From: Pseudomonadota bacterium | GTDB lineage: Bacteria > Pseudomonadota > Gammaproteobacteria > Xanthomonadales > Rhodanobacteraceae | NCBI GenBank assembly: GCA_018240565.1 | Contig: JAFEFO010000022.1 | Location: 1 to 64,000, forward strand | Reading direction: 5' to 3' | Length of the DNA: 64,000 nt | In this document: in pieces, positions 26,430 to 39,706 of the stretch | Numbering within the stretch: the first letter of the stretch is position 1 | Layout: every line of letters starts with the position of its first letter | The notes under the pieces: model-generated | The model's database searches: none | Told to the model about the DNA's origin: nothing | Seen by the model: the letters and a program-made list of their open reading frames with translations, nothing else | Translations under genes and position numbers: made by a program

Positions 26430-27434
26430 ATGGCCATCGCTTCGCCCGACCTGTCCCGATCGACATCGCGTTTTGCCCAGGCGCAGGTACTGGCCGCGCC
26501 GGGCATGGCGCGCGTGGATGCGCTGATCCGCACGCGGCTCGCGTCCGACGTGGTGCTGGTCAACCAGATCGCCGAGCACATCGTCGGCGCCGGCGGCAAG
26601 CGCCTGCGGCCGATGCTGGTGCTGCTTTCCGCGCAGGCCGCCGGTTACGCCGGTGCGCACGACACCTTGCTCGCCACAGTGGTCGAGTTCATCCACACGG
26701 CGACGCTTCTTCACGACGACGTGGTCGACGAGTCGGACCTGCGCCGGGGACGCAAGACGGCGAACGCGCTGTGGGGCAATGCGGCCAGCGTGCTGGTCGG
26801 GGATTTTTTGTATTCGCGTGCGTTCCAGATGATGGTCGAGGCCGACGACATGCGCGTGATGCGCATCCTCGCCGACACGACCAACCGCATCGCCGAAGGC
26901 GAGGTGCTGCAACTGCTCAACATCCACAACCCGGACGTGGACCAAGCCGCCTACCTGCGCGTGATCGAGCGCAAGACCGCCGTACTGTTCGCCGCCGCCA
27001 CGCGCCTGGGCGGCCTGCTCGGTGGATTGCCTGCGGCGCAGGAAGACGCGCTCGCGGACTATGGATTGAACCTTGGCTTCGCCTTCCAGATCGCCGACGA
27101 CGTGCTCGACTACGTGTCCGATGCCGGCACGCTCGGCAAGAACATCGGCGACGACCTCGCCGAGGGCAAGGTCACGCTGCCGCTGATCTACGCGCTGGAA
27201 CGCGCCGATCCGGCACACGCCGCGTCGATCCGCCACGCCATCGAAACCGGCGGACTGGACGCGCTCGACGCGATCCTCGCCACGATCCGCGGCAGCGGCG
27301 CGGTCGAACGCGCGCGTTCTCGGGCGGGCGCGTACGCCGATGCCGCAAAAGCGGCATTGTCCACATTGCCGCATTCCGCCGCGCGCGACGCACTGGCGGC
27401 GCTGGCCGACTACGCACTGCAACGCGACCACTGA
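26430..27434 (+). CDS. ispB: Octaprenyl-diphosphate synthase
   Basis: 334 residues from the ATG at 26430. This trans-polyprenyl synthase shows GGKRLRPML (~50-60), the first Asp-rich motif LLHDDVVDESD (~90-100) and the second, FQIADDVLDY (~220). It makes the side chain of ubiquinone. The 3' neighbour begins 2 bp downstream, so may share the transcript. The usual neighbours rplU-rpmA are not seen here. Confidence 0.93.
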   Translation: MAIASPDLSRSTSRFAQAQVLAAPGMARVDALIRTRLASDVVLVNQIAEHIVGAGGKRLRPMLVLLSAQAAGYAGAHDTLLATVVEFIHTATLLHDDVVDESDLRRGRKTANALWGNAASVLVGDFLYSRAFQMMVEADDMRVMRILADTTNRIAEGEVLQLLNIHNPDVDQAAYLRVIERKTAVLFAAATRLGGLLGGLPAAQEDALADYGLNLGFAFQIADDVLDYVSDAGTLGKNIGDDLAEGKVTLPLIYALERADPAHAASIRHAIETGGLDALDAILATIRGSGAVERARSRAGAYADAAKAALSTLPHSAARDALAALADYALQRDH

Positions 27435-27436
27435 CG

Positions 27437-27937
27437 ATGAAGTCGATAACGAAAGCGATCGTCACGATTCTTGTGCTGGCCCAGTACGCGCCGGCAGTGC
27501 ATGCCGACGCCGCGGCGACGGCCTCGATCGAAGTCGCCGGCGAGAATGGGAGCCCACGTCACTTCGACGCTGCCGCACTGGCCAGATTGCCGCAACACAC
27601 CGTTCGTGCGCAGGCGCATGGGCAAACCGTCACCTGCACCGGTGCGAACGTCATCGACCTGCTCGCTGCGGTCGGCGCGCCACACGGTGCGGCCGTGCGC
27701 GGCAAGGCGCTCGCGCTGTATGCACGTGTCCGTGCGGCGGACGGCTACCGCGCCGTATTCGCGTTGGCCGACCTGGATCCGGACATGCGCGGCGCCGTCC
27801 CCATCGTCACTGCGAGCTGCGACGGCAAGCCGCTCGACGCGAAGATCGGCCCGTTCCGCCTCGTCGTGCCGGACGACAAGCGTCCGGCGCGCTGGGTACG
27901 CCAGGTGACCGCAATCGACCTTTTGCGTGCGCCGTGA
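27437..27937 (+). CDS. Small exported protein, molybdopterin-oxidoreductase-like domain
   Basis: 166 residues, beginning 2 bp after ispB. The first ~24 residues are a Sec signal (hydrophobic stretch, then HADAAA). The rest resembles a minimal form of the sulfite-oxidase-type molybdopterin-binding fold, with GANVIDLLAAVG, YRAVFALADLDP and GPFRLVVPDDKRPARWVRQV being characteristic. It lacks the full-length cofactor-binding elements, so enzymatic activity is uncertain; it may be a degenerate, non-catalytic member. Confidence 0.65.
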   Translation: MKSITKAIVTILVLAQYAPAVHADAAATASIEVAGENGSPRHFDAAALARLPQHTVRAQAHGQTVTCTGANVIDLLAAVGAPHGAAVRGKALALYARVRAADGYRAVFALADLDPDMRGAVPIVTASCDGKPLDAKIGPFRLVVPDDKRPARWVRQVTAIDLLRAP

Positions 27938-28020
27938 GTCGGCGGCGGCGGCCGGCATTTGGAAATCCCTAACACCGCCGGTTTAGACTGCCAAACACTT
28001 TCCAATCCATGGAGCCCGCC

Positions 28021-29052
28021 ATGCGTCGCAGTCGCTTCGTGTTTGCCCTGGGTTTGATCGCACCCGCGCTCGCCGCCGCAGCGCCGCACTACGCAGTCAC
28101 GCAGCGCTACGCCATCGGTCAAGCCGGTGGCTGGGACTACCTGGCGTATTCCGCCGACGGACACAGGCTGTACATCAGTCGTTCCGACCGCGTGCTCGTG
28201 GTCGATGCCGACAACGGCAAGGTGGAGGCGACGATTCCCGGCACCGACGGCGTGCACGGCATCGCGCTGGTGCCCGCGCTTGGCCATGGCTACACCAGCA
28301 ATGGCCGCGCCGATACGCTCACCGAATTCGACCTCGCCACATCCAAGCCCCTGCGCACGATCGCGGTGGAAGGCAAGAATCCCGATGCGTTGATCTACGA
28401 CGCCGCGAGCAAGCATCTGTTTGCGTTCGATGGCCACAGCAACGAAGCGAACGTCATCGATCCGGTCGCCGGCAAGCTGGTGACGAAAATCCCGCTGCCC
28501 GGCAAACCCGAGTTCGCCGCCAGCGACGAGGCCGGCAATGTCTACGCCAACATCGAGGACACCGCGCAACTGGCGCGCATCGATTCGACGACGAACAAGG
28601 TCATGGCGGTGTGGAAACTCGCCGGGTGCGAAGAGCCATCGGGCCTCGCCATCGACATCGCGCATCATCGGTTGTTCTCGGTCTGCCAGAACAAGCACAT
28701 GGCCGTCACCGATGCGCAGACGGGCAAATCCGTCGCGACCGTCGCAATTGGCGAGGGCCCCGACGCGGCAGGCTTTGATGCCACGCGTGGCCTGGTCTTC
28801 AGCACGAATGGTCACGACGGCACGCTAACCGTCGTGCACGAGGACGATCCCGACCACTATTCGGTAATCGCGAATGTGCCCACCGAAAAAAGCGCGCGCA
28901 CGCTGGCGCTGGATACCCAAGGCAACCGCCTCTTCACCGTCGCGGCGAAATTCGGGCCGCGTCCGGCGCCGACAAAGGAAAATCCACACCCGTGGCCCGC
29001 GGTCGTCGAAGGCAGCTTTACGGTTCTCGTGGTAGGCGAGCGGAAGCCCTGA
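28021..29052 (+). CDS. YncE-like periplasmic beta-propeller protein
   Basis: 343 residues from the ATG at 28021 (GGAG at 28010-28013). A Sec signal peptide is followed by repeated blades of the YncE/cytochrome D1 type: YLAYSADGHRLYISRSD, then VDADNGKVEATIPG, VIDPVAGKLVTKIPLPG and further copies to the C-terminus. No haem-binding motif is seen, so I take it as a ligand-binding or scaffold protein. It begins the long efflux operon; the next gene overlaps its stop by one base. Confidence 0.8.
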   Translation: MRRSRFVFALGLIAPALAAAAPHYAVTQRYAIGQAGGWDYLAYSADGHRLYISRSDRVLVVDADNGKVEATIPGTDGVHGIALVPALGHGYTSNGRADTLTEFDLATSKPLRTIAVEGKNPDALIYDAASKHLFAFDGHSNEANVIDPVAGKLVTKIPLPGKPEFAASDEAGNVYANIEDTAQLARIDSTTNKVMAVWKLAGCEEPSGLAIDIAHHRLFSVCQNKHMAVTDAQTGKSVATVAIGEGPDAAGFDATRGLVFSTNGHDGTLTVVHEDDPDHYSVIANVPTEKSARTLALDTQGNRLFTVAAKFGPRPAPTKENPHPWPAVVEGSFTVLVVGERKP

Positions 29053-30374
29053 TGCGGAATCTGCGCAGCGCATGGCTTGTCGCTTTCGCTGCGCTTGGCG
29101 GCTGTGCGTTGTACCGGCCGCTGCCGCTCACTGAAAATCCGGCACCGGTGGCGCTGGCCGATGCCGCCAAATCCGTCGACCATCCGCGCCTGGCGCCGCT
29201 GCCGATTCCCGCGCAGGGGCCGTGGACCGATCTGCAACTGGCCGACATCGCCATTGTCGCCAGTCCCGACCTTGCGGCGCTGCGCGCGCAGGCCAAAGTC
29301 GCCGACGCGCAGGTTTTCGCGGCGGGCCTGTTGCCCGACCCGCAGATCGGCATAGCCGTGGACGATCCGGACGGCTCGGGCACAGTCAAGGCGTTCACAC
29401 TCAGCGCCGGCTTCGACATCGCTGCCTTGCTCACGCGCCGCGCGCGCGTCGCCGCCGCGCGCGCGAATGCCGAACAGGTACGCCGCGATATCGCCTGGCA
29501 GGAATGGCTGGCGGCGAACCAGGTGCGTCTGCTCGCGCGCCGCTATCACTATCTTGAACGCCAACACACCGTCGCCGCACATGCGGCCGATGCGGCGGAA
29601 AGATTGCTGGCACTGACCCAAACCGCGCTTGATCAACACAATGCGCGGCTGGACGATCTCGCCCTGCGCCGCGTCGCCGTGCTCGACTCACGCGCACGCG
29701 AAGGCGCCCTCGCGCGCGATGCGGAATCCGCGCGCCAGCAACTCAATCAAGCCGTCGGCGTGACGCCGGATACACATCTGCCACTTGCCGACGTGACGGC
29801 GCCGCACGATCCGTCCACGCTCGATGCGGCGGCGCTGGAAGAACAGGCGCTGGCGCGGCGGTTGGACCTGGCCGCACTGCGCGCCGGTTATGCCTCGCAG
29901 GAAGCGCAAGTGCGTGGCGCGATCCTGCAGCAATATCCGCTGCCGAACATCAGCGTATCGCGTGCACGCGACACCACACCGGTGTACACGAGAGGCGCGT
30001 CGGTGAATTTCGCCCTGCCTTTGTGGAACCGCAATCGCGGCGGCGTGGCAGTCGCCGATGCGACACGTGAACAGCTGCACGCCGAGTACGCCGCACGCGC
30101 ATTCGATGCACGGGCATCCATTGCCGCGCAGGTTGAAGCATTGAAACAGATCGCCGCGCAACGCCAGGCGCTCGATGCGCAGCTCGGCAAACTGCGCACG
30201 GAGATGCAACCGCTGGAACAGGCAGCCGAGCGCCGCGATGTGGCTCTGGTAAGCTTCGAGACCGCGCGTGCAGCCCTGCTTGACAAGGAAATCGCCAGCC
30301 TCGCGCTGGCGCAAGCACAGTCCGAAGGCGAAGTTGCGCTGGCGATCGATGTGGGGGCATTGATATGGCATTGA
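29052..30374 (+). CDS. Outer membrane efflux lipoprotein, TolC family (first copy)
   Basis: 440 residues. An N-terminal lipoprotein signal carries a lipobox ending LGGC (Cys near residue 18). Two repeated coiled-coil/beta-barrel halves of the TolC superfamily follow, with the typical DLAALRAQAKVADAQVFAAG and RRLDLAALRAGYASQEAQVRG helices. It is the outer membrane channel of a tripartite pump. It overlaps the adaptor gene by 10 bp. A second, different TolC-like gene follows the RND pump in the same operon. Confidence 0.88.
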   Translation: MRNLRSAWLVAFAALGGCALYRPLPLTENPAPVALADAAKSVDHPRLAPLPIPAQGPWTDLQLADIAIVASPDLAALRAQAKVADAQVFAAGLLPDPQIGIAVDDPDGSGTVKAFTLSAGFDIAALLTRRARVAAARANAEQVRRDIAWQEWLAANQVRLLARRYHYLERQHTVAAHAADAAERLLALTQTALDQHNARLDDLALRRVAVLDSRAREGALARDAESARQQLNQAVGVTPDTHLPLADVTAPHDPSTLDAAALEEQALARRLDLAALRAGYASQEAQVRGAILQQYPLPNISVSRARDTTPVYTRGASVNFALPLWNRNRGGVAVADATREQLHAEYAARAFDARASIAAQVEALKQIAAQRQALDAQLGKLRTEMQPLEQAAERRDVALVSFETARAALLDKEIASLALAQAQSEGEVALAIDVGALIWH

Positions 30375-31414
30375 AGGTTTTCTGGATCGTCGCGTTCGCC
30401 TGCGCGCATGCGCTGATTGGCGCGCCAGCAGCGCACGCCGATGAAGACGATGCCGCGGTGGCGACCGTGGCGAGCGTGCAAGTTGCGACTGCCACGCTCG
30501 CACCGATGCGGCAATACATTTCCGCATTTGGCACGCTCGTATTTTCAGCCGATGCGCTGCAGACGCTGTCGGTGCCGTATCAGGCACGCGTCGTGCGTGT
30601 CGATGTCGTCGCCGGCCAGTTGGTGCGCAAAGGCGACGCCCTGGTCGAACTGCAACCCACCGCCGCCGCCGCGTTGGAATTGCAGCGTGCGGACAACGAC
30701 GCGCGGTTCGCAGACACGCAACTGGCGCGCACGCGTGAATTGTTCGCCCAACACCTGGCGACCAATACCGACCTCGCCGCCGCCGAACAGGCCGCGCACA
30801 ACGCCCAGGCCACGCAGGCTTCCGCGCAAGCGCGCTTTGGTGGACTGGGTGAACACACGCTGCGCGCCGATCACGCTGGCGTGGTCGCCGACATCGCTGC
30901 GCGCGCCGGCGAAATCATCGCCGCGGACACGGCGTTCGCGCATGTCGGTGACAACGCCGGTTTGCGCCTGGATCTTGGCGTCGAGCCATCCGCCATCGCC
31001 CAGGCGCATGCAGGCGCGCCGGTGCGATTTCATTTGTTGCAGGATGGCGCAGCGCAACGCAAGGCCGTCGTCGAACGCGTCGGCGGTCAGATCGATGCCG
31101 CCTCGCGCCTGATTCCTGTCGTCGCCAAACCCGATGCCGACACGCAACTTACGCCCGGCGCAGCCGTGAGCGCACAGATCGAAACCGGCACCGGCAAGCC
31201 CGTACTCGGCGTACCGCGCGCGGCCGTGCTCTGGCAGGACAGCAAGGCGTATGTCTTCGTGGTGCAGTCCGGCAAGGCGCGGCGGCGTGCGGTCGAGGTC
31301 GGTGCGGACGACGGCGAACGCATCGAAATCAAATCCGGCCTTGCGGCGAACGAATCCGTGGTCACGCTCGGCAACTACGAACTCGAAGACGGCATGGCGG
31401 TCAAGGTGCAATGA
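30365..31414 (+). CDS. RND efflux periplasmic adaptor (membrane fusion protein)
   Basis: 349 residues with a Sec signal ending APAAHA. The lipoyl/barrel-sandwich halves flank a helical hairpin: VPYQARVVRVDVVAGQLVRKGDALVEL (~75-100), then the hairpin (~105-155), then LRADHAGVVADIAARAGEIIAAD (~165). The C-terminal beta-barrel and membrane-proximal domains end at LEDGMAVKVQ. It bridges the RND pump and a TolC-type channel. The stop overlaps the RND gene start (ATGA). Confidence 0.9.
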   Translation: MALKVFWIVAFACAHALIGAPAAHADEDDAAVATVASVQVATATLAPMRQYISAFGTLVFSADALQTLSVPYQARVVRVDVVAGQLVRKGDALVELQPTAAAALELQRADNDARFADTQLARTRELFAQHLATNTDLAAAEQAAHNAQATQASAQARFGGLGEHTLRADHAGVVADIAARAGEIIAADTAFAHVGDNAGLRLDLGVEPSAIAQAHAGAPVRFHLLQDGAAQRKAVVERVGGQIDAASRLIPVVAKPDADTQLTPGAAVSAQIETGTGKPVLGVPRAAVLWQDSKAYVFVVQSGKARRRAVEVGADDGERIEIKSGLAANESVVTLGNYELEDGMAVKVQ

Positions 31415-34400
31415 GCGCCGCCTGGCTGACGCGGCATCAGCGCTCGCTCGGGCTGCTGATCCTGATTCTTGTCGCCGGCGGCATCGCCGCGGCGTGGAAC
31501 CTGCCGGTCGGCCTGTTTCCGAACATGGATTTTCCGCGCGTGGTGATTGCGATCGACGCCGGCGACCGCCCGATCGAACGCATGCAGGCGGAAATCACGC
31601 GTCCGCTGGAGCGGGTGTTGCGCGGCGTGCCGGACGTGGAACGCGTGCACTCGACGACGAGCCGCGGTTCCGCCGAAATCGCGCTCACCTTCGCCTGGGG
31701 CGTGGACATGGGTCGCGCGCTGTTGCAGGTGCAGGCGGCGATGAACGGCGCCCTGCCCGCGCTGCCACCGGGCGTGTCGTTCAGCGCGCAGCGACGCGAT
31801 CCAACCGTTTTTCCGGTGCTTGGACTCACCCTCACCTCGCCCACGCGCGGCGCGGTGGGATTGCGCGATTTCGCCACGCTCGAACTCGCACCGGCGCTGA
31901 GCGCCGTGCCCGGCATTGCCGACATCGAAATCCTCGGCGGCCGCAGCGCCGAGTTCCAGGTGCTGCTCGATCCAGCACGCTTGCGCGCCTATGCGCTATC
32001 CAGCGCCGATGTGGAACAGGCGCTCAATGCCGGCAACGCGGTTGCCGCGGTCGGGCGCATCGAAGATCGCTATCGGCTTTATCTGACCATTGCCGACACA
32101 CGCCTGACCGGCGTCGACGACATTCGTCACACGGTCGTGAAAACCGTGAACGGTCAGCCGGTGACGGTCGCCGCGCTGGGGCAGGTGCAACTCGGCCAGC
32201 AGCCGGAATTCACGCGCGTGACCGCCAACGGCGGCGACGCGGTACTGATCAACATCCGCCAGCAGCGCGGCGCCAACACGGTGGCATTGGTGCGCGCCGT
32301 GCGCGCGCGTCTGGCCGATCTGCGCGCGCAGGTTCCGGCCGACATCCGCGTCGGCACGTATTACGACCAATCCGAATTGATCGTCGCCTCGGCGGCCAGC
32401 GTGCGCGATGCCATCCTGATCGGCGCGCTGTTCGCCGCGCTGGTGCTGTTCGCCTTCCTGCGCAGCGCGCGCGTCACCCTGATCGCCGCACTCGCCCTGC
32501 CCATCGTCATCGCCATCACCGTTTTGCTGCTGCAACTGTTCGGCATGAGTTTCAACATCATGACCCTCGGCGGCATGGCGGCGGCGGTCGGCCTGATCGT
32601 CGACGACGCCGTGGTGATGATCGAGCACATCATGCGCCGCGCCGGCGCACAGCGCGCGGCCGGCGATGTCACCGTGCTCGCCGCAGCGCAGGAAATGCTG
32701 CGGCCATTGACCGGATCGTCGCTCGCCACCATCGTCGTGTTTGCGCCGCTCGCCTTCCTCGGTGGTGTCGCCGGCGGTTTCTTCAAAGCGCTGGCGTTGA
32801 CCATGGCAGCAGGTTTGGCGGTGTCGTGGGCGTTGGCCGCCCTCGCCCTGCCGTTGGTCGCCGCACGCGTATTGCGCGTGGACGATGCGCAGCGCATGGA
32901 ACAGGCCGAGCGCTGGATTGCCGGTGCGCATCGTGTCTATGTCACGCGCATGCAACGTGCGCTGGCGCGACCGCGTTGGGCGCTGGCGGCCATCGTGATC
33001 TGCGCCGTGATCGCCACGCTGTGCTACTGGCGCCTCGGCACCGGTTTCATGCCGCACATGGATGAAGGCGGCTTCGTCCTTGACTACGTCAGCCCGCCCG
33101 GCACCTCGCTCACCGAAACCGACCGACTGCTGCGTCAGGTTGAGGCGATCATCAAATCCACACCCGAGGTCGACAACTACTCGCGCCGTACCGGCCTGCA
33201 ACTCGGTGGCGGCCTGACCGAGGCCAATGAAGGCGATTTCTTCGTGCACCTCAAACCCATGCCGCGGCGCGGCATCGAAGACATCATGAGTGACGTGCGC
33301 GCGAAGATCGCCGCGCAAGTACCGGGCCTGCGCATCGAAACCGCGCAATTGATGGAAGACCTGATCGGCGATCTCGTCGCCACGCCCCAGCCCATCGAGG
33401 TCAAGGTTTTCGGCCAGAATCCGGCTGCCGACCGCGCCACGGCAGCGCAAATCGCCACCGCGATTGCTAAAATACCCGGCGTGGTCGAGGTTTTCGACGG
33501 GGTCAAGATCGCCGGCGATGCCATCGAGGTACGCGTGGATCGCGCGCGCGCCGCGCTGGACGGCCTGGATCCGGACAGCGTGACGCGCCAGCTCGAAACA
33601 GAATTGGGCGGCAGCCTTGCCGGGTCGATCCGGCAGGGCGAAAAGCTCGTCGGCATTCGCGTGTGGACGCCGGGCGACCTGCGCCAGCGCATCGGCCAGC
33701 TTGCCGCGATGCCACTGCGCGCAGCCGACGGACACACGCTGCCGTTGGGCCGGGTGGCAGAGATTGCGATTGCGCAAGGCCAGCCCGAGGCCGAGCGCGA
33801 GGATCAGCGGCCGATGGTTGCGGTGACGGCACGATTGGAAGGGCGCGATCTGGGGTCGGCAATGAGCGATGTGAAAGCAAGCGTGGCGAAGCTGAAATTG
33901 CCAACCGGCATGCAGGTCGAATATGGCGGCCTGTACGGCCAGCAACAGGCCTCGTTCCGGCAGATGGCACTGGTGTTTGCCGGCGCCTTGCTGCTGATCG
34001 TCACCCTGCTCATGTTCGTGTACGAAAACGTCGCCGTGGTGGCGAGCATCCTGATTGCGACGTTCTGTTCGCTGGCGGGCGTGTTCGCCGGACTGTGGCT
34101 GACCGGCACCGAATTGAACCTGTCCTCGATCATGGGACTCACCATGATCCTTGGCATCGTCACCGAAATCGCGATTTTCTATTTCGCCGAAATCGACTTC
34201 GCGCGTCCGCTCGATCGCACGGCATTGATCCAAGCCGGCACCATGCGCATGCGTCCGATCCTGATGACGTCCCTGATCGCCATCCTTGCCCTGTCGCCGC
34301 TCGCACTCGGCATAGGCACGGGCGCGGCAATGCAGCAACCGCTGGCGATCGCCATCGTGTTCGGCTTGATCGCCGCGGTGCCGATCGTCTTGATCGTGAT

Positions 34401-34452
34401 GCCCATGATCTACGTGCTGCTGGCACGCATGCCGCACGAGGCCGTGACATGA
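31411..34452 (+). CDS. RND family efflux pump inner membrane permease
   Basis: 1013 residues with the classic two-fold RND layout: N-terminal membrane helix, large periplasmic loop, six helices, a second loop, six helices. Charged residues of the proton relay are in GLIVDDAVVMIEH (helix 4, ~398). The segment GTGFMPHMDEGGFVLDYVSPPG after helix 7 is closer to heavy-metal RND pumps (CusA/CzcA), while the helix-4 motif is closer to the HAE drug pumps. The substrate is therefore open. It is coupled by 4-bp overlaps to adaptor and second TolC-like gene. Confidence 0.92.
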   Translation: MSAAWLTRHQRSLGLLILILVAGGIAAAWNLPVGLFPNMDFPRVVIAIDAGDRPIERMQAEITRPLERVLRGVPDVERVHSTTSRGSAEIALTFAWGVDMGRALLQVQAAMNGALPALPPGVSFSAQRRDPTVFPVLGLTLTSPTRGAVGLRDFATLELAPALSAVPGIADIEILGGRSAEFQVLLDPARLRAYALSSADVEQALNAGNAVAAVGRIEDRYRLYLTIADTRLTGVDDIRHTVVKTVNGQPVTVAALGQVQLGQQPEFTRVTANGGDAVLINIRQQRGANTVALVRAVRARLADLRAQVPADIRVGTYYDQSELIVASAASVRDAILIGALFAALVLFAFLRSARVTLIAALALPIVIAITVLLLQLFGMSFNIMTLGGMAAAVGLIVDDAVVMIEHIMRRAGAQRAAGDVTVLAAAQEMLRPLTGSSLATIVVFAPLAFLGGVAGGFFKALALTMAAGLAVSWALAALALPLVAARVLRVDDAQRMEQAERWIAGAHRVYVTRMQRALARPRWALAAIVICAVIATLCYWRLGTGFMPHMDEGGFVLDYVSPPGTSLTETDRLLRQVEAIIKSTPEVDNYSRRTGLQLGGGLTEANEGDFFVHLKPMPRRGIEDIMSDVRAKIAAQVPGLRIETAQLMEDLIGDLVATPQPIEVKVFGQNPAADRATAAQIATAIAKIPGVVEVFDGVKIAGDAIEVRVDRARAALDGLDPDSVTRQLETELGGSLAGSIRQGEKLVGIRVWTPGDLRQRIGQLAAMPLRAADGHTLPLGRVAEIAIAQGQPEAEREDQRPMVAVTARLEGRDLGSAMSDVKASVAKLKLPTGMQVEYGGLYGQQQASFRQMALVFAGALLLIVTLLMFVYENVAVVASILIATFCSLAGVFAGLWLTGTELNLSSIMGLTMILGIVTEIAIFYFAEIDFARPLDRTALIQAGTMRMRPILMTSLIAILALSPLALGIGTGAAMQQPLAIAIVFGLIAAVPIVLIVMPMIYVLLARMPHEAVT

Positions 34453-35834
34453 AGTCGGATTTTCGGCTCGTCCTCGCCGGCGCCGCCTGTGCGCTGCTGG
34501 CTTCCTGCGCATTGCACACGCCGCTGCCCGACCTGCATGCCGACGTGCCAGCGCAGTGGCGCAATGCGCCTGCCGACGCGGGCAAACTCGGGCCGGCACC
34601 GGACCTGGACGCGTGGTGGCATGCCTTCAACGATGCGCAACTCGACGCGCTGATCCAGCGCGCGCTGGCGCAGAACCTGACCGTGCAGCAAGCCAGCCTG
34701 CGCCTGCGCGGCGCGCGTGCCCTGCAGCATCGCTCCGGCACGCAGTTCATGCCGCAGGTGAACTTCCATACCTTCTCCGAACCCGATCCCGCCGCCACGA
34801 CGAGTTACTACGAGATCGGCTTCGACGCGCAATGGGAGCTGGGCTTCTTCGGCCGCGGCCTCGGCAATGCGCGCGTTGCCGCCGCCGATTTGCAAGCGGC
34901 GGAAACCAGCGTCACCGCCGCACGCGTGAGCCTGGTCGCCGAAGTCGCGCGCAGTTATGTCGACCTGCGCGCCGCGCAGGCGCGCGCCGGCCTGCTCGAT
35001 CGCATCGTGGACTTGCGCGAACGCGACGTGGAACTCGCCCGAACGCGCCTGCGCCTGAAGCTGGCAACACAGGACGACGTCGACAAGGCCGCGGGCGAAC
35101 TCGCGCAGGCACGCGCGGATGCCGCCGAGCCCGCCGCCGCCATCGCGCAGGCGCAACAGGCGCTGGACGTTCTGCTGGCGCAGTCGCAACCGGATGCGAA
35201 CTTGGCCAGCGCCGCACCACAACCGGTGCTGGGCGCGGTGAGCTTTGCGCAGACTCCGGCCGACCTGCTGCGCACGCGTCCGGAGATCCGCCAGGCCGAA
35301 CTCGACGTGCTGCGCGCCGCCGGTGAACTCGGCATCGCGCGCGCCGACCTGTGGCCGAAGCTCGGCCTCGGCGGCACGCTGATTTCGTCCACGCGCATGG
35401 TCGGCGACATCGACCGTCCGAACAAGGCGATTCCTTCCGCGGGCCCCATGATCGACATCCCGCTGCTCGACTGGGGTGCGCGCCACGACATGGCGAATGC
35501 GCGCGAGGCGGGCTTGCAGGCCGCGGTGCTTGGCTACCGCCAGGCCGTGCTCGAAGGCGTGGCCGAAGCCGAAAGCGCGCTCGCGCAATGGCAGCGCGAC
35601 CAGGCGCGCGCCGACGCCGCGCACGCGCGCCTGGCGCTCGCCGACAACGCCTTGACGCGCGCTCAAACCCTGCGCCGCATCGGCCTGGCCGACGACGCCG
35701 ACCGCGCGCAGGCCGGCATCGCGCAGGCGCAGGCGCAGCTGCAGGCGTCGCTCGCGCAACGCGATGCCGCCATCGCCTTCATCGCGGTATACAAATCCTT
35801 CGGCGGCACGCTACCGCCACTGGCGATGCAATGA
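34449..35834 (+). CDS. Outer membrane efflux lipoprotein, NodT/TolC family (second copy)
   Basis: 461 residues. Lipobox LLASC near residue 20; the following segment (PADAGKLGPAPDLDAWWHAFND then LDALIQRALAQNLTVQQA) is the standard start of NodT-type factors. The two repeats each carry an ARSYVDLRAAQAR or ALGYRQAVLEGVAEAE-like helix. It is unrelated in detail to the first TolC-like protein 5 kb upstream. Overlaps both neighbours by ATGA. Confidence 0.92.
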   Translation: MKSDFRLVLAGAACALLASCALHTPLPDLHADVPAQWRNAPADAGKLGPAPDLDAWWHAFNDAQLDALIQRALAQNLTVQQASLRLRGARALQHRSGTQFMPQVNFHTFSEPDPAATTSYYEIGFDAQWELGFFGRGLGNARVAAADLQAAETSVTAARVSLVAEVARSYVDLRAAQARAGLLDRIVDLRERDVELARTRLRLKLATQDDVDKAAGELAQARADAAEPAAAIAQAQQALDVLLAQSQPDANLASAAPQPVLGAVSFAQTPADLLRTRPEIRQAELDVLRAAGELGIARADLWPKLGLGGTLISSTRMVGDIDRPNKAIPSAGPMIDIPLLDWGARHDMANAREAGLQAAVLGYRQAVLEGVAEAESALAQWQRDQARADAAHARLALADNALTRAQTLRRIGLADDADRAQAGIAQAQAQLQASLAQRDAAIAFIAVYKSFGGTLPPLAMQ

Positions 35835-36970
35835 GCGTCGTCGCGCTGGCCAGCAAGACGCTGTTCTACGAATGGCGCAAGTTCCTGCCGGCGGCGCTGG
35901 CGGTCGCGTTTTCCGGCCTGCTGCTGTTGATGCAGGCGGCGCTGATGTTCGGCATCTTCGACTCGGCCAGCGTGTACGTGAACAAATCCGCCGCCGATCT
36001 GTGGGCCGGCTATCCGGGCACGCAGACCATCGAGCTCGGCCGGCCGATTCCGCGCGACACCGAAATGGCGCTGCGCATGGACCCGGCCGTGATCCGCGTC
36101 GAACCCTTCCACTGGATCGACGGCGACTGGCGCGGACCGGTCAGCCACGGCAGCCTGTCGGTGTTCATCTCCGGCATCGATCCCGCGCCCGATGGCCTGA
36201 TGTTCGCGCACGCCATCCCGGCGCCCATGCGTGCGCTGCTTTACGAACCCGACGCGGTGATCGTGGATGCCGCCGACCTGCCCAAGCTCGGCCTGCCGAT
36301 CGGCGGCAGCGCCACGCTCAACGGCCATCGCGTGAAGATCGTCGCCGCCTGCCACGGCCTGCGTGCACTAGGCGGCGTCAATATCGTCACCTCCGTCGCC
36401 ACCGCGCGGCGCCTGAATTCGGATCCCGCCAATGCCGATCGCGTGGCCTATTACGTCGCCAAGCTGCGTCCCGGTGCCAATGCGGACGCGGTGCGCGACC
36501 GCATCCAGGCGGCCTGGCCGCAGCGCCATTTCACGGTGTGGACGCGCGCCGAATTCGCGCACACCGCGGCGACCTACTGGATGTTCGAAACCGGCGCGGG
36601 CCTGGGATTCGTATTCTTCACCTTCATCGTGTTCCTGGTCGGCACCGTCATCACCAGCCAGACCCTGATGGCGGCGGTGGCGAGCCACGTGCGCGAATAC
36701 GCCATGCTCAACGCGCTCGGCGCCGGCACCGGCGCGCTGCGCCGCGTGGTGCTGGAACAGGCCCTGATCGTGGGCAGCTTCGGCATCGTCGCCGGCGCGG
36801 TTGCCTGCGCACTGCTCATCGCGCTCGCACACAGCCAGAATGTGCCGGTCGCCTTCGACACCAGTGCCGCGATCGGCTGCGGCGTGCTGGTGCTGACCAT
36901 CGCCCTGGTCTCCGGCGTCATGGCGGTGCGCACGATCGCGCACCTGGAACCGGCCAACCTGTTGCGCTGA
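35831..36970 (+). CDS. ABC transporter permease, FtsX/MacB-like (DevC type)
   Basis: 379 residues. One N-terminal membrane helix (FLPAALAVAFSGLLLLMQAALM) is followed by a periplasmic domain of ~210 residues and three C-terminal helices, the topology of FtsX-domain permeases. The C-terminus REYAMLNALGAGTGALRRVVLEQ is the signature coupling helix region. It forms a transporter with the ATPase at 37114 and the adaptor at 37878. The 143-bp gap to the ATPase holds a large palindrome, an exception in an otherwise overlapping operon. Confidence 0.9.
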   Translation: MSVVALASKTLFYEWRKFLPAALAVAFSGLLLLMQAALMFGIFDSASVYVNKSAADLWAGYPGTQTIELGRPIPRDTEMALRMDPAVIRVEPFHWIDGDWRGPVSHGSLSVFISGIDPAPDGLMFAHAIPAPMRALLYEPDAVIVDAADLPKLGLPIGGSATLNGHRVKIVAACHGLRALGGVNIVTSVATARRLNSDPANADRVAYYVAKLRPGANADAVRDRIQAAWPQRHFTVWTRAEFAHTAATYWMFETGAGLGFVFFTFIVFLVGTVITSQTLMAAVASHVREYAMLNALGAGTGALRRVVLEQALIVGSFGIVAGAVACALLIALAHSQNVPVAFDTSAAIGCGVLVLTIALVSGVMAVRTIAHLEPANLLR

Positions 36971-36989
36971 CATGGCCCGAGTCCATCCC

Positions 36990-37110
36990 AAAACCTGCTC
37001 CGCTCGACATCTCGAACGCCGGCTGTGCTCGGAATCCTCATGTACGCAAAAGTACACTCCGGTTCCTGCGCGCACGCGGCGTTCAATCTGTCTTCGCTCG
37101 CGACGGTTTT
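36990..37110. repeat. 120-bp imperfect palindromic element
   Basis: The whole gap is one imperfect inverted repeat. The centre is GTAC-GCAAAA-GTAC (37042-37055). Outward, GAACGCCG/GGCGTTC-type, CGGAATCC/GGTTCC-type and AAAACC/GGTTTT arms pair on both sides over ~55 nt each. It would fold as a long RNA hairpin between permease and ATPase genes. It may be a member of a repeat family (I have only one copy here) or an mRNA-processing site. Confidence 0.7.
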
Positions 37111-37113
37111 GAA

Positions 37114-37881
37114 ATGAACTTGACCCACGCCCTGATTGCCGAAGACGTCGCCAAGGCCTACACCACGGGCAAGATCGACACGTCCGTGCTCGACGGATTG
37201 TCGTTGGCGCTGGAAGCACGCGAACTCGCGCTCGTACTCGGCCCTTCCGGATCCGGCAAGAGCACGCTTCTGGCGATCTTGTCCGGCCTGCTGCGGCCGG
37301 ATCGCGGCCGTATCGTCGCGCTCGGCGAGGATTTGTGGAAATTGTCGCGCGTGCAACTCGAACGCTTCCGCCTGCAGCACACCGGCTTCGTGTTCCAGGG
37401 CTTCAACCTGTTCCCGGCATTGAGCGCGGTGGAACAGGTGATGCTGCCGCTGGGCTACCTCGGGCTGGACAAGCGCACCGCGCAGAATCGCGCGCTCGCC
37501 GCGCTGGAAGAAGTAGGGCTGGGCTCGCGCGTGCACCTGCGTCCGCTTGAGATGTCCGGCGGCGAAAAACAACGCGTGGCGATCGCGCGCGCGCTGGCGA
37601 AGAAACCGCAATTGCTGTTCGCCGACGAGCCGACCAGCGCGCTGGACAGCGTCAACGGCAAGATCGTGATCGATTCGCTGCACCGCATCGCGCGCAACTT
37701 CGGCGCGACCGTGGTGTGCGTCAGCCACGACCACCGCCTGGCGGCCAGCGCCGACCGCATCATCACGATCCAGGATGGCCTGATCCAGTCCGATACGGTG
37801 TCCTCCGCCAACGGCCGATCGGATAAACTGCACAACGGCACCGTGCCTGCGGACGCCGCGCAACCGGAACCCGCATCATGA
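37114..37881 (+). CDS. ABC transporter ATP-binding protein (MacB/LolD/DevA type)
   Basis: 255 residues with all nucleotide-binding motifs: Walker A GPSGSGKST (~43-51), Q-loop FVFQGFNLFP, signature MSGGEKQR (~148), Walker B LLFADEPTSALD and the H-loop VVCVSHDHR. The membership among LolD-like ATPases fits the FtsX-type permease upstream. Its ATGA overlap with the adaptor gene downstream couples the two. Confidence 0.93.
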   Translation: MNLTHALIAEDVAKAYTTGKIDTSVLDGLSLALEARELALVLGPSGSGKSTLLAILSGLLRPDRGRIVALGEDLWKLSRVQLERFRLQHTGFVFQGFNLFPALSAVEQVMLPLGYLGLDKRTAQNRALAALEEVGLGSRVHLRPLEMSGGEKQRVAIARALAKKPQLLFADEPTSALDSVNGKIVIDSLHRIARNFGATVVCVSHDHRLAASADRIITIQDGLIQSDTVSSANGRSDKLHNGTVPADAAQPEPAS

Positions 37882-38780
37882 AACGTCACTCGCTCCCGCG
37901 CGCCATTCTTGCGCTCGCCGCCTGCGCCGCGCTCGGCGCGTGTTCGCACAAGGACGCCGCCACGGCACCGGCGAACGCCGCGCCGCCGGCCTTCATTGCG
38001 ATGGCGCGCGGCCAGGTCGATGTGCAAGGCGGACTGATCCGCATCGCCGCGCCACGCGATGGCGTGATCGCGCAATTGCATGGCGATCCCGGCAGCGAGG
38101 TCAAGGCTGGCGACGTGCTCGCCCAGCTCGATCCGAAGCAGGCCGAACTTTCCGCCGGCATCGCACAGGCGCAATTGGATCAAGCGGTCGCGCGCGCCGC
38201 CGCGCTGCGCACGCAGGTGGCCGGACTCAAGCCGCGCGCGGAACGCGCCACCGAGGCGGCGAAGGCCGGTGCCGCCACCCAGCAATCCGCCGACGACGCA
38301 CAACAGGCACTGGCCGAGGCGAATGCACAACTCGGCGAAGCCGATGCCGCGGTCGAAGCCGCGCGGCAACATCTCAAGCAGGCACAGCACGAAGTGTACG
38401 TGCTCGCCATCCGCGCGCCGGTGGCCGGTCGCGTCGTCGCGCGCCACGCGCACCTGGCCGATGTCGTATCACCGCAGTCCGCCACGGCTCTGTTCACCGT
38501 GTTGCCCGACGCCCCACGCATCGTGCGCGCGGAATTGAACGAGGCCTTCCTCGCCAAGGTCAGCGTCGGCATGCACGCCGAAGTGGTCACCGTGGACGGC
38601 GCCGGCAAGACCTATGCCGCCACGGTCACGCGCATCGGCGACGTGTTCGGACCCAGCACACTCATCGAGGACCCGCAGGAAGCGACGGACACCCGCGACG
38701 TGGTGTGCATCCTCAAGCTCGACTCGAGCGAGCTGCGCGTGGGGCAACGGGTGCAGGTGCGGTTCAAGGCGCACCAGTAA
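37878..38780 (+). CDS. ABC-type efflux adaptor lipoprotein (HlyD/MacA-like)
   Basis: 300 residues. Lipobox ALGACS near the N-terminus. The lipoyl half-motif IRIAAPRDGVIAQLHGDPGSEVKAGDVLAQLDP (~52-85), an Ala-rich helical hairpin (~90-160) and a second half-motif (VLAIRAPVAGRVVARHAHLADV, ~170-190) define a HlyD-type adaptor. It lacks the long barrel domain, being shorter than MacA. It is the last gene of the operon, and a dispersed repeat follows 16 bp downstream. Confidence 0.88.
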   Translation: MKRHSLPRAILALAACAALGACSHKDAATAPANAAPPAFIAMARGQVDVQGGLIRIAAPRDGVIAQLHGDPGSEVKAGDVLAQLDPKQAELSAGIAQAQLDQAVARAAALRTQVAGLKPRAERATEAAKAGAATQQSADDAQQALAEANAQLGEADAAVEAARQHLKQAQHEVYVLAIRAPVAGRVVARHAHLADVVSPQSATALFTVLPDAPRIVRAELNEAFLAKVSVGMHAEVVTVDGAGKTYAATVTRIGDVFGPSTLIEDPQEATDTRDVVCILKLDSSELRVGQRVQVRFKAHQ

Positions 38781-38795
38781 AACCGAGCTTTTGCT

Positions 38796-38905
38796 CGTCA
38801 TTCCGGCAGGGACTGCCGGAATCCAGTCGCCATGGATGGCGGTCTTTGCCAATGTGCAGCGCCGCGTCCTGCAATCTGGATCCCGGCAATCCTTGCCGGG
38901 ATGAC
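38796..38905. repeat. Dispersed palindromic repeat, copy 2 (after the efflux operon)
   Basis: 110 bp starting CGTCATTCCGGCAGGGAC and ending TTGCCGGGATGAC, so the two ends are inverted copies. Inner sequence includes CCAGTCGCCATGGATGGC, also present in copy 3. It lies between the convergent efflux operon and the dienelactone hydrolase gene, where it could act as a bidirectional terminator. Confidence 0.75.
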
Positions 38906-38914
38906 AAGAAAAGA

Positions 38915-39706
38915 CTACTTTCCTCCAAACGCCTCGCCGAAGAAACTGTGCATCAACGCAAACGCACGATGCGCGACTTTCGCATCGTACTTGCAGCCGT
39001 GCATGGAACCGTCCGCGCTCGGTATCGCAAAGCAATGCACCGCGCCGCCGTAGTTGACGAACTGCCAGTCGACGCCGGCGTCGCGCATTTCCTTCTCGAA
39101 GCCCTGGATCGCCGATTCCGGCGTGAAGCTGTCGTCCGCTCCGTTCATGGCCAGCACCATGCCCTTGATGTTCTTCGCCAGCGCTGGATCGTCGGTCGAC
39201 AGACTGCCATGGAAAGTCGCCGTGCCGGCGATGTTCGCGCCGCTGCGCGCCAGGTCCAGCGCGACCGCGCCGCCGAAGCAGAATCCGATCGCGCCCCAAT
39301 GCTTGCCATCCAGTGGCGCCTTGCCTTGCTGTGCGACCAATTGCGCCAGCGCCGCCTTGATGCGTGCGCGCAACTCGTCGCGGTGCTTGTACAGGTTGCC
39401 CGATGCCTTGCCGGCTTCGTCCGGATTCTTCGGGCGCACCGCGGTGCCGTACACATCGGCGACGAGGATCACGTAGTCGGAGCCGGCGATCTGCTTGGCG
39501 AGCGCGATCTGGTTCGCATTCATGCCATACCAATCCGGCGCCATCACCAGCCCCGGGCGCGGCGTCTTCACCGCATCGTCGTAAACCAGCACGCTTTGCA
39601 TCTTTGCGCCATCGACCGTGTAGTCGATGTTGCGCGCAACCATCTCCGCCTGCGCCGCACCGGATCCCAGGCCCAATACCGCAAGCGTTGCGAGCACCCG
39701 TTTCAT
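38915..39706 (-). CDS. Dienelactone hydrolase family protein, exported
   Basis: 263 residues from the ATG at 39706, which has GGAGG seven bases upstream; a TTG just before it is unlikely. The N-terminus is a signal peptide (LATLAVLGLGSGAAQA). The alpha/beta hydrolase core has nucleophile elbow GFCFGGAVAL (~136, Cys as in dienelactone hydrolases), Asp near MNGADDSFTP and catalytic His in GGAVHCFAIP. Substrate unknown; secretion is unusual for the classic cytosolic enzyme. Confidence 0.85.
   Translation of the reverse strand: MKRVLATLAVLGLGSGAAQAEMVARNIDYTVDGAKMQSVLVYDDAVKTPRPGLVMAPDWYGMNANQIALAKQIAGSDYVILVADVYGTAVRPKNPDEAGKASGNLYKHRDELRARIKAALAQLVAQQGKAPLDGKHWGAIGFCFGGAVALDLARSGANIAGTATFHGSLSTDDPALAKNIKGMVLAMNGADDSFTPESAIQGFEKEMRDAGVDWQFVNYGGAVHCFAIPSADGSMHGCKYDAKVAHRAFALMHSFFGEAFGGK

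Follow-up and report, generated by a model that had tools for sequence, protein, structure and literature searches.

Why would a bacterium place two efflux pumps that draw on different energy sources in a single run of genes? Work on efflux pumps usually treats one energy class at a time, and the question arises from a stretch of 64,000 nucleotides of contig JAFEFO010000022.1 (hereafter, the window), which belongs to a genome assembly of 45 contigs and 3.0 Mb. The host is a soil-type bacterium. Eight intact open reading frames (ORFs) follow one another on the plus strand at 28021-38780, encoding a beta-propeller protein, an outer-membrane channel (TolC1), an adaptor, a permease of the resistance-nodulation-division (RND) superfamily, a second channel (TolC2), an FtsX-type permease, an ATPase of the ATP-binding cassette (ABC) type and a second adaptor. 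The Pfam and NCBIfam domains bear out both the gene order proposed in the initial annotation and its claim of two full tripartite systems, which differ in energy source and have an adaptor and a channel each. It is probable that the locus encodes two parallel tripartite pumps under shared control, which defend the envelope against cationic compounds or a divalent metal. The same two pumps appear to have been joined independently in other bacteria, which suggests one shared cell-envelope defence.

Six of the seven junctions overlap, by 1, 10, 4, 4 and 4 nt and, after a gap of 143 bp, by 4 nt. The overlaps noted almost throughout the run are thus real, except before the ATPase gene, where the gap is occupied by a repeat. 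In the region 27300-39200, terminator-like sites are not in excess (10 on both strands versus 9.2 in shuffled sequences; the two on the plus strand both lie within the RND gene), and no sigma-70-like promoter was found where 1.3 were expected, so one transcript across the eight genes is plausible. The Rfam scan of 27900-39100 returned a single match, which was under its gathering score.

The initial annotation had tied its reading to the conservation of synteny in relatives, and in the clade of the window this conservation is found: L039, L041, L042 and L045 carry the fused arrangement, and the contig of L040 ends within the ATPase gene. The arrangement occurs again with other RND lineages. 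In G001, which belongs to the same genus, the RND pump is of another lineage (47% identical), and the TolC2-FtsX-ATPase-adaptor cassette and then the propeller gene come after it. In L110 the RND system is sphingomonad-like; the permease of the cassette behind it falls in one group with that of G026. The RND and TolC2 genes overlap by 4 nt (ATGA) in L041, L042 and L045, and also in G001 if an upstream in-frame start is used. On the RND tree, which has 58 rows, the fused arrangement requires at least three changes, L110 being one of the three cases. The approximately unbiased (AU) tests, whose groups were chosen with a first tree already in view, reject one origin for the window clade with G001 (p 4.7e-75) and with L110 (p 8.3e-51). 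An ancestral eight-gene operon was also considered and was rejected, because in these tests the RND lineages of the three fusions do not form one clade. The FtsX tree gives four changes for fusion, with G007, whose contig breaks at TolC2, coded as apart; G007 and G010 are not among the rows of the RND tree.

Other arrangements were found as well. G071 has the two operons head to tail, with a glycosyltransferase gene and a two-component pair between them, and in G035 the two operons are divergent neighbours. G012, a bin that is 78% complete, has the order propeller-TolC2-FtsX-ATPase-adaptor with no RND match. The TolC2 gene of G012 (L172 390-1760) is split by a frameshift, which reflects either a sequencing error or decay.

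Co-localisation was counted over 197 genomes of the family with a threshold of 20 kb. The RND and FtsX genes lie within this distance in 16 of the 112 genomes that have both and are adjacent in six; outside the genus, the count is 10/101 against 1.06 expected. The propeller gene is found within 20 kb of the RND gene in 33/93 genomes (26/83 outside the genus, 1.09 expected) and within 20 kb of the FtsX gene in 20/100 (16/89 outside the genus, 1.2 expected). These expected values presuppose that genes are placed at random in a genome of 4.2 Mb and take no account of kinship; the counts therefore show an excess, and not its exact strength. In the class-wide sample of 369 genomes, the RND subfamily (E <= 1e-200) was detected in 21, the FtsX subfamily (E <= 1e-50) in six and both in three, with the two pumps on one contig only in the window genome. 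Repeated joining of the same two pump classes suggests selection on pump cooperation.

The RND permease belongs to the RND superfamily, as follows from a full-length ACR_tran match (707.8 bits) and from the RND fold of its model. In the RND tree, where 48 of the rows represent the subfamily and few are reference permeases, the subfamily makes up a single clade (SH-aLRT 100) that is nearer to Cus/Czc than to AcrB/MdtBC, a placement that carries a long-branch warning and depends on few references. All 86 aligned members of the subfamily, which include close relatives and are not all independent, have Asp-Asp in transmembrane helix 4 (TM4), Glu at the column of AcrB Lys940 (TM10) and a conserved Arg971. 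Asp407/Asp408 in TM4 together with Lys940 in AcrB are presumably the marks of the HAE-1 (hydrophobe/amphiphile efflux) pumps; in the 86 members, both Asp residues are present and Glu stands for Lys. Met573, Met623 and Met672 of CusA, which we take to be the three-Met metal site of the heavy-metal efflux (HME) pumps, do not occur as such a site among the members: the Met573 column has Asp in 82 and Asn in four, the Met672 and Glu625 columns have Asp in all, and the Met623 column varies (54 Glu, 12 His, 10 Gln, 8 Thr, others). The scores of the window protein lie below the cut-offs of the HME model TIGR00914 (480.1 vs 701.45 bits) and of the HAE-1 models TIGR00915 (395.3 of 940.35) and NF033617 (543.5 of 1250). 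The mixture of heavy-metal and drug marks pointed out at the outset is therefore real, and since it is constant in the 86 members it is, on sequence grounds, a stable trait of the subfamily. The idea of a blend of two families has to be replaced, as the tree and the marks assign the pump to a separate, distinct subfamily, one whose substrate is predictable and testable from its acidic site.

The window pump is 25-27% identical to CusA and CzcA. It shares Glu in TM10 with CusA, and its operon has the order channel, adaptor, RND known from CusCBA and CzcCBA, although in cus CusF lies between; it differs in the Asp-Asp pair of TM4 and in having no Met site. With AcrB and MdtBC (23-25% identical, below the NCBIfam cut-offs) it shares the TM4 Asp-Asp, the TM11 Arg and the overall fold, but it has Glu in place of the TM10 Lys. 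In the Foldseek search with the AlphaFold model (pLDDT 84, the predicted local distance difference test), CusA came first (TM-score 0.90) and the AcrB/AcrD rows gave 0.85-0.90; the 50 rows listed by VIA-align are drug pumps with Z 48-51, with no HME entry among them. To judge by its description, the subfamily may correspond to Clade F, a candidate HME group. Bodilis et al. 2024 (PMC10872679) describe this clade as near HME yet outside it; Cus3ABC belongs to it, and it shows enrichment at metal or acid sites.

RND similarity was used to fetch 80 loci, and TolC1, its adaptor and the RND permease occur together in 68 of them; in the other 12, the pump match starts at most 1.4 kb from the sequence end. 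Close relatives of the protein are labelled Rudaea sp. and Lysobacteraceae bacterium, and matches were also found in Thiomonas, Gallionella, Mariprofundus and Acidocella. A Polymorphobacter plasmid (L199 2369-12069) carries a propeller, a TonB receptor, a TolC, an adaptor and an RND gene in series. In L059 (7630-16666) and L073, from a Hydrogenovibrio and a Thiomicrospira bin, the RND operon is followed by a gene for a DUF347 protein, identified by scan in L059, and then by genes for an ABC ATPase, a protein that looks HlyD-like by eye and a distant FtsX permease; here too an RND and an ABC system are neighbours, the latter of a different type.

The FtsX permease was matched in 161 of the 197 family genomes, nearly always as one copy; it is widespread in the family and mostly lies away from the RND pump. 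In 32 stretches around it, with genes called by a simple gene finder, the TolC2-FtsX-ATPase-adaptor cassette is full in 19 and partial in 10, with no call in three. Both published smaCDEF qPCR primers (PMC11356428, PMC12189255) fall with 0-2 mismatches within the TolC2 homolog of the cassettes of three genomes, spanning 294 bp. Because the primers match within the channel gene of a cassette with these four genes, the ABC half of the locus can be assigned to the SmaCDEF type. SmaCDEF of Stenotrophomonas maltophilia (Smlt1651-4) has the same four genes in the same order. Cassettes of this type are 35-59% identical to that of the window by gene (in the primer-matching cassettes, 48% for the permease, 59% for the ATPase and 35-37% for the adaptor and the channel), and no RND gene was found in the three primer-matching stretches of 16-20 kb. 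Through the repeated joining, the SmaCDEF-type pump gains a partner and a possible physiological role.

The model of the FtsX permease, of moderate confidence (pLDDT 65), matches MacB, LolCE and HrtB and has the topology of a MacB-type (type VII) permease: one transmembrane helix, a periplasmic domain and three further helices. The permease fold, the separate adaptor and the TolC-type channel are shared with DevBCA and MacAB-TolC, but the permease and the ATPase of the window are separate chains, unlike MacB, and the scores are under the devC, DevA and DevB cut-offs (TIGR01185, 108.3/290.35; TIGR02982, 194/295.8; TIGR02971, 64/129 bits). In the available portion of PMC3547906, Smlt1652 is listed as a homolog of the zeamine permease Zmn8, and the zeamine clusters are described with a related permease, ATPase and HlyD adaptor. 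VarABCDEF of Vibrio cholerae was tried as a two-pump precedent and rejected, as it is ABC only according to the accessible text of PMC5595328. No RND and ABC operon of such kind was found in the open-literature papers PMC8277102, PMC5595328 and PMC10872679, as far as their available text extends.

In relatives, the propeller is linked to either the RND pump or the ABC cassette, and in some of them TonB receptors adjoin it. The protein is propeller-like only, scoring 50.7 bits on the YncE model NF052280 against a cut-off of 400. The control genes beside the two pumps are of a similar style. In L110, genes for a PepSY protein, a response regulator and a histidine kinase precede the RND pump; the annotation of a Sphingomonas plasmid shows this series beside its RND gene, and other sphingomonad loci have PepSY-profile matches and gene pairs of two-component size upstream of the pump. 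For the regulators of L110 and L149, the best scores come from heavy-metal-type models, under the cut-off, which recalls the two-component neighbours of Cus/Czc. A small gene between propeller and TolC1 in L041, L045 and L165 matches the PepSY profile (E 8e-11 to 5e-10; with Pfam alone, that of L041 gave nothing). The window has no such gene, and its propeller and TolC1 genes overlap by one base. Phmmer searches with four regulator and kinase queries found no two-component gene among the window ORFs of at least 90 aa at E <= 1e-10. Gene pairs of two-component size frequently adjoin the ABC cassette too; the one pair scanned, in G002, is PmrA/QseC-like and follows a PepSY gene. A PepSY protein is reported to govern a polymyxin B-induced sensor system (PMC12714742). 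In G033, a MipA relative lies after the cassette, and MipA binds polymyxin in P. aeruginosa, as stated in the accessible part of PMC10936184.

The simplest view is that two parallel pumps are made together, because each half is complete with its own channel. TolC1, the first adaptor and the RND permease would form a proton-driven pump that removes a positively charged substrate, a divalent metal or an organic cation, from the periplasm; the charge is suggested by acidic porter residues at the place where CusA binds metal by methionines. TolC2, FtsX, ATPase and the second adaptor would form a SmaCDEF-type pump of the MacB fold, in which cytoplasmic ATP binding shifts the periplasmic domain and thereby expels amphiphiles from the periplasm or from the inner membrane's outer leaflet. 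The propeller may be a periplasmic accessory working with either pump. In several relatives each pump has its own PepSY/two-component control; here both pumps would be co-transcribed from one shared promoter region, with the regulator acting in trans. The shared propeller and the shared style of PepSY/two-component control point to one physiological task, and cationic substrates would fit the acidic RND site and the links, all of them indirect, to zeamine, the polymyxin sensor and MipA. The locus offers a natural system for testing pump synergy with few deletions.

A number of observations speak against this picture. The L110 fusion could be a misassembly or a recent join, because the GC content of this metagenome contig rises from ~0.685 to 0.72 at the junction and the likely TolC2 start leaves a gap of 112 bp after the RND gene. 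In the co-localisation counts, relatives were treated as independent, so the Poisson figures overstate. The condition that the initial annotation set for its own refutation, a lack of synteny in relatives, applies in part: in the family sample, 96 of the 112 genomes with both pumps have them more than 20 kb apart or on different contigs; contig breaks hide some of the neighbour cases. The propellers of g3, g13 and g19, located 3.5-4.2 kb from FtsX, are 48-53% identical to that of the window and may be paralogs. CusA and AcrB/AcrD match the RND model about equally well, and the resistance reported for SmaCDEF in the parts of the literature available is to fluoroquinolones/levofloxacin, without metals. 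The repeat before the ATPase gene may lower the expression of that gene.

The pumps might also be neighbours merely through a common variable resistance island, their adjacency being functionally meaningless. Such an island would agree with the separation of the pumps in most sampled genomes and with the presence of RND relatives on plasmids, where 17 of 23 matching records cover at least 80% of the pump at 46-55% identity. In G148, G138, G103 and G091 an RND gene occupies a comparable position close to the ABC cassette, a pattern reminiscent of a hot spot of exchange, and its lineage in G148 differs from that in G138/G103. Nevertheless, the RND and TolC2 genes stand head to tail on the same strand in three RND lineages, with 4-nt overlaps in two, and the propeller is linked to both pumps. 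Chance adjacency is disfavoured by the fusion tree, the AU tests and the co-localisation excess outside the genus, and we regard the island as unlikely. It is rather improbable that the locus works as a relay of two stages handling a single cationic amphiphile or metal complex, in which the MacB-fold pump would clear the inner membrane, the RND pump would clear leakage into the periplasm, the propeller would be a shared periplasmic chaperone or sensor, and selection for a fixed ratio would repeatedly fuse the operons.

Export of a self-made molecule (a metallophore, an envelope lipid or an antibiotic), passed by the ABC part to the periplasm and by the RND part to the outside, would explain the resemblance to the zeamine clusters and the TonB receptors that adjoin the propeller of some relatives; the glycolipid exporter DevBCA is remotely related (PMC8277102). 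But no natural-product synthase is present among the three window neighbours scanned (polyprenyl synthetase, molybdopterin-domain and dienelactone-hydrolase type), and each half has its own outer-membrane channel, which periplasmic hand-over would not require for the ABC part; this export is quite improbable. Hardly credible is one mixed machine in which adaptors and channels are swapped between the RND and ABC engines. The overlaps would give matched production and both adaptors have HlyD_D23/HlyD_3 domains, yet in many relatives each half is complete without the other beside it, and the two channels are of differing type, TolC2 scoring above the NodT cut-off. Two parallel pumps with a shared envelope task remain the preferred reading.

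The features of the locus and its surroundings are collected in Table 1. The propeller ORF has a second in-frame ATG at 28009, and TolC1 has no sequence match in the PDB at E <= 0.1.

Table 1. Features of the two-pump locus, its upstream neighbours and the small genes of relatives.
Feature	Position	Strand	Basis
Beta-propeller, YVTN/YncE-like	28021-29052	+	Pfam/NCBIfam; signal-like N terminus by eye
TolC1, RND-system outer-membrane channel	29052-30374	+	OEP domain; lipobox-like N terminus by eye
Adaptor 1, RND-type membrane fusion protein (MFP1)	30365-31414	+	TIGR01730 above cut-off
RND permease, assigned to a distinct subfamily	31411-34452	+	ACR_tran; TM4 Asp-Asp; TM10 Glu919; porter-domain Asp558/Asp609/Asp654
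TolC2, NodT-type outer-membrane channel, SmaCDEF-type cassette	34449-35834	+	TIGR01845, 213.5 bits vs cut-off 210.05
FtsX-type permease, MacB/LolCE/HrtB fold	35831-36970	+	Pfam; structure model
Dispersed palindromic repeat, start of ATPase gene	36971-37113	+	Genome matches
ABC ATPase	37114-37881	+	Walker A, signature and Walker B intact by eye
Adaptor 2, HlyD-type	37878-38780	+	Pfam/NCBIfam; lipobox-like N terminus by eye
Molybdopterin-binding-domain protein, directly upstream, candidate operon neighbour	27437-27937	+	Domain scan
Polyprenyl synthetase, upstream	26430-27434	+	Domain scan
PepSY-like small gene	L041 2238-2600		PepSY profile
PepSY-like small gene	L045 2669-3040		PepSY profile
PepSY-like small gene	L165 3818-4183		PepSY profile

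The repeat at the FtsX-ATPase junction is an imperfect palindrome of ~130 bp with 31 matches in the genome, its own copy counted, and an RNA fold z of -3.7. It seems that the repeat landed inside the start of the ATPase gene, because the junction comprises 4 bases in L041 and L045 versus 143 bp in the window, and the bases found ahead of the repeat in the window are followed immediately by the ATPase start in L039. G012 (L172 2913-3042) has a 75%-similar copy in the opposite orientation at the same junction, and GGTTTTGA is found one base ahead of the ATPase start codon in both the window and G012. After the operon, at 38800-38905, two short inverted repeats were noticed by eye, CCGGCAG...CTGCCGG and CCCGGCAA...TTGCCGGG.

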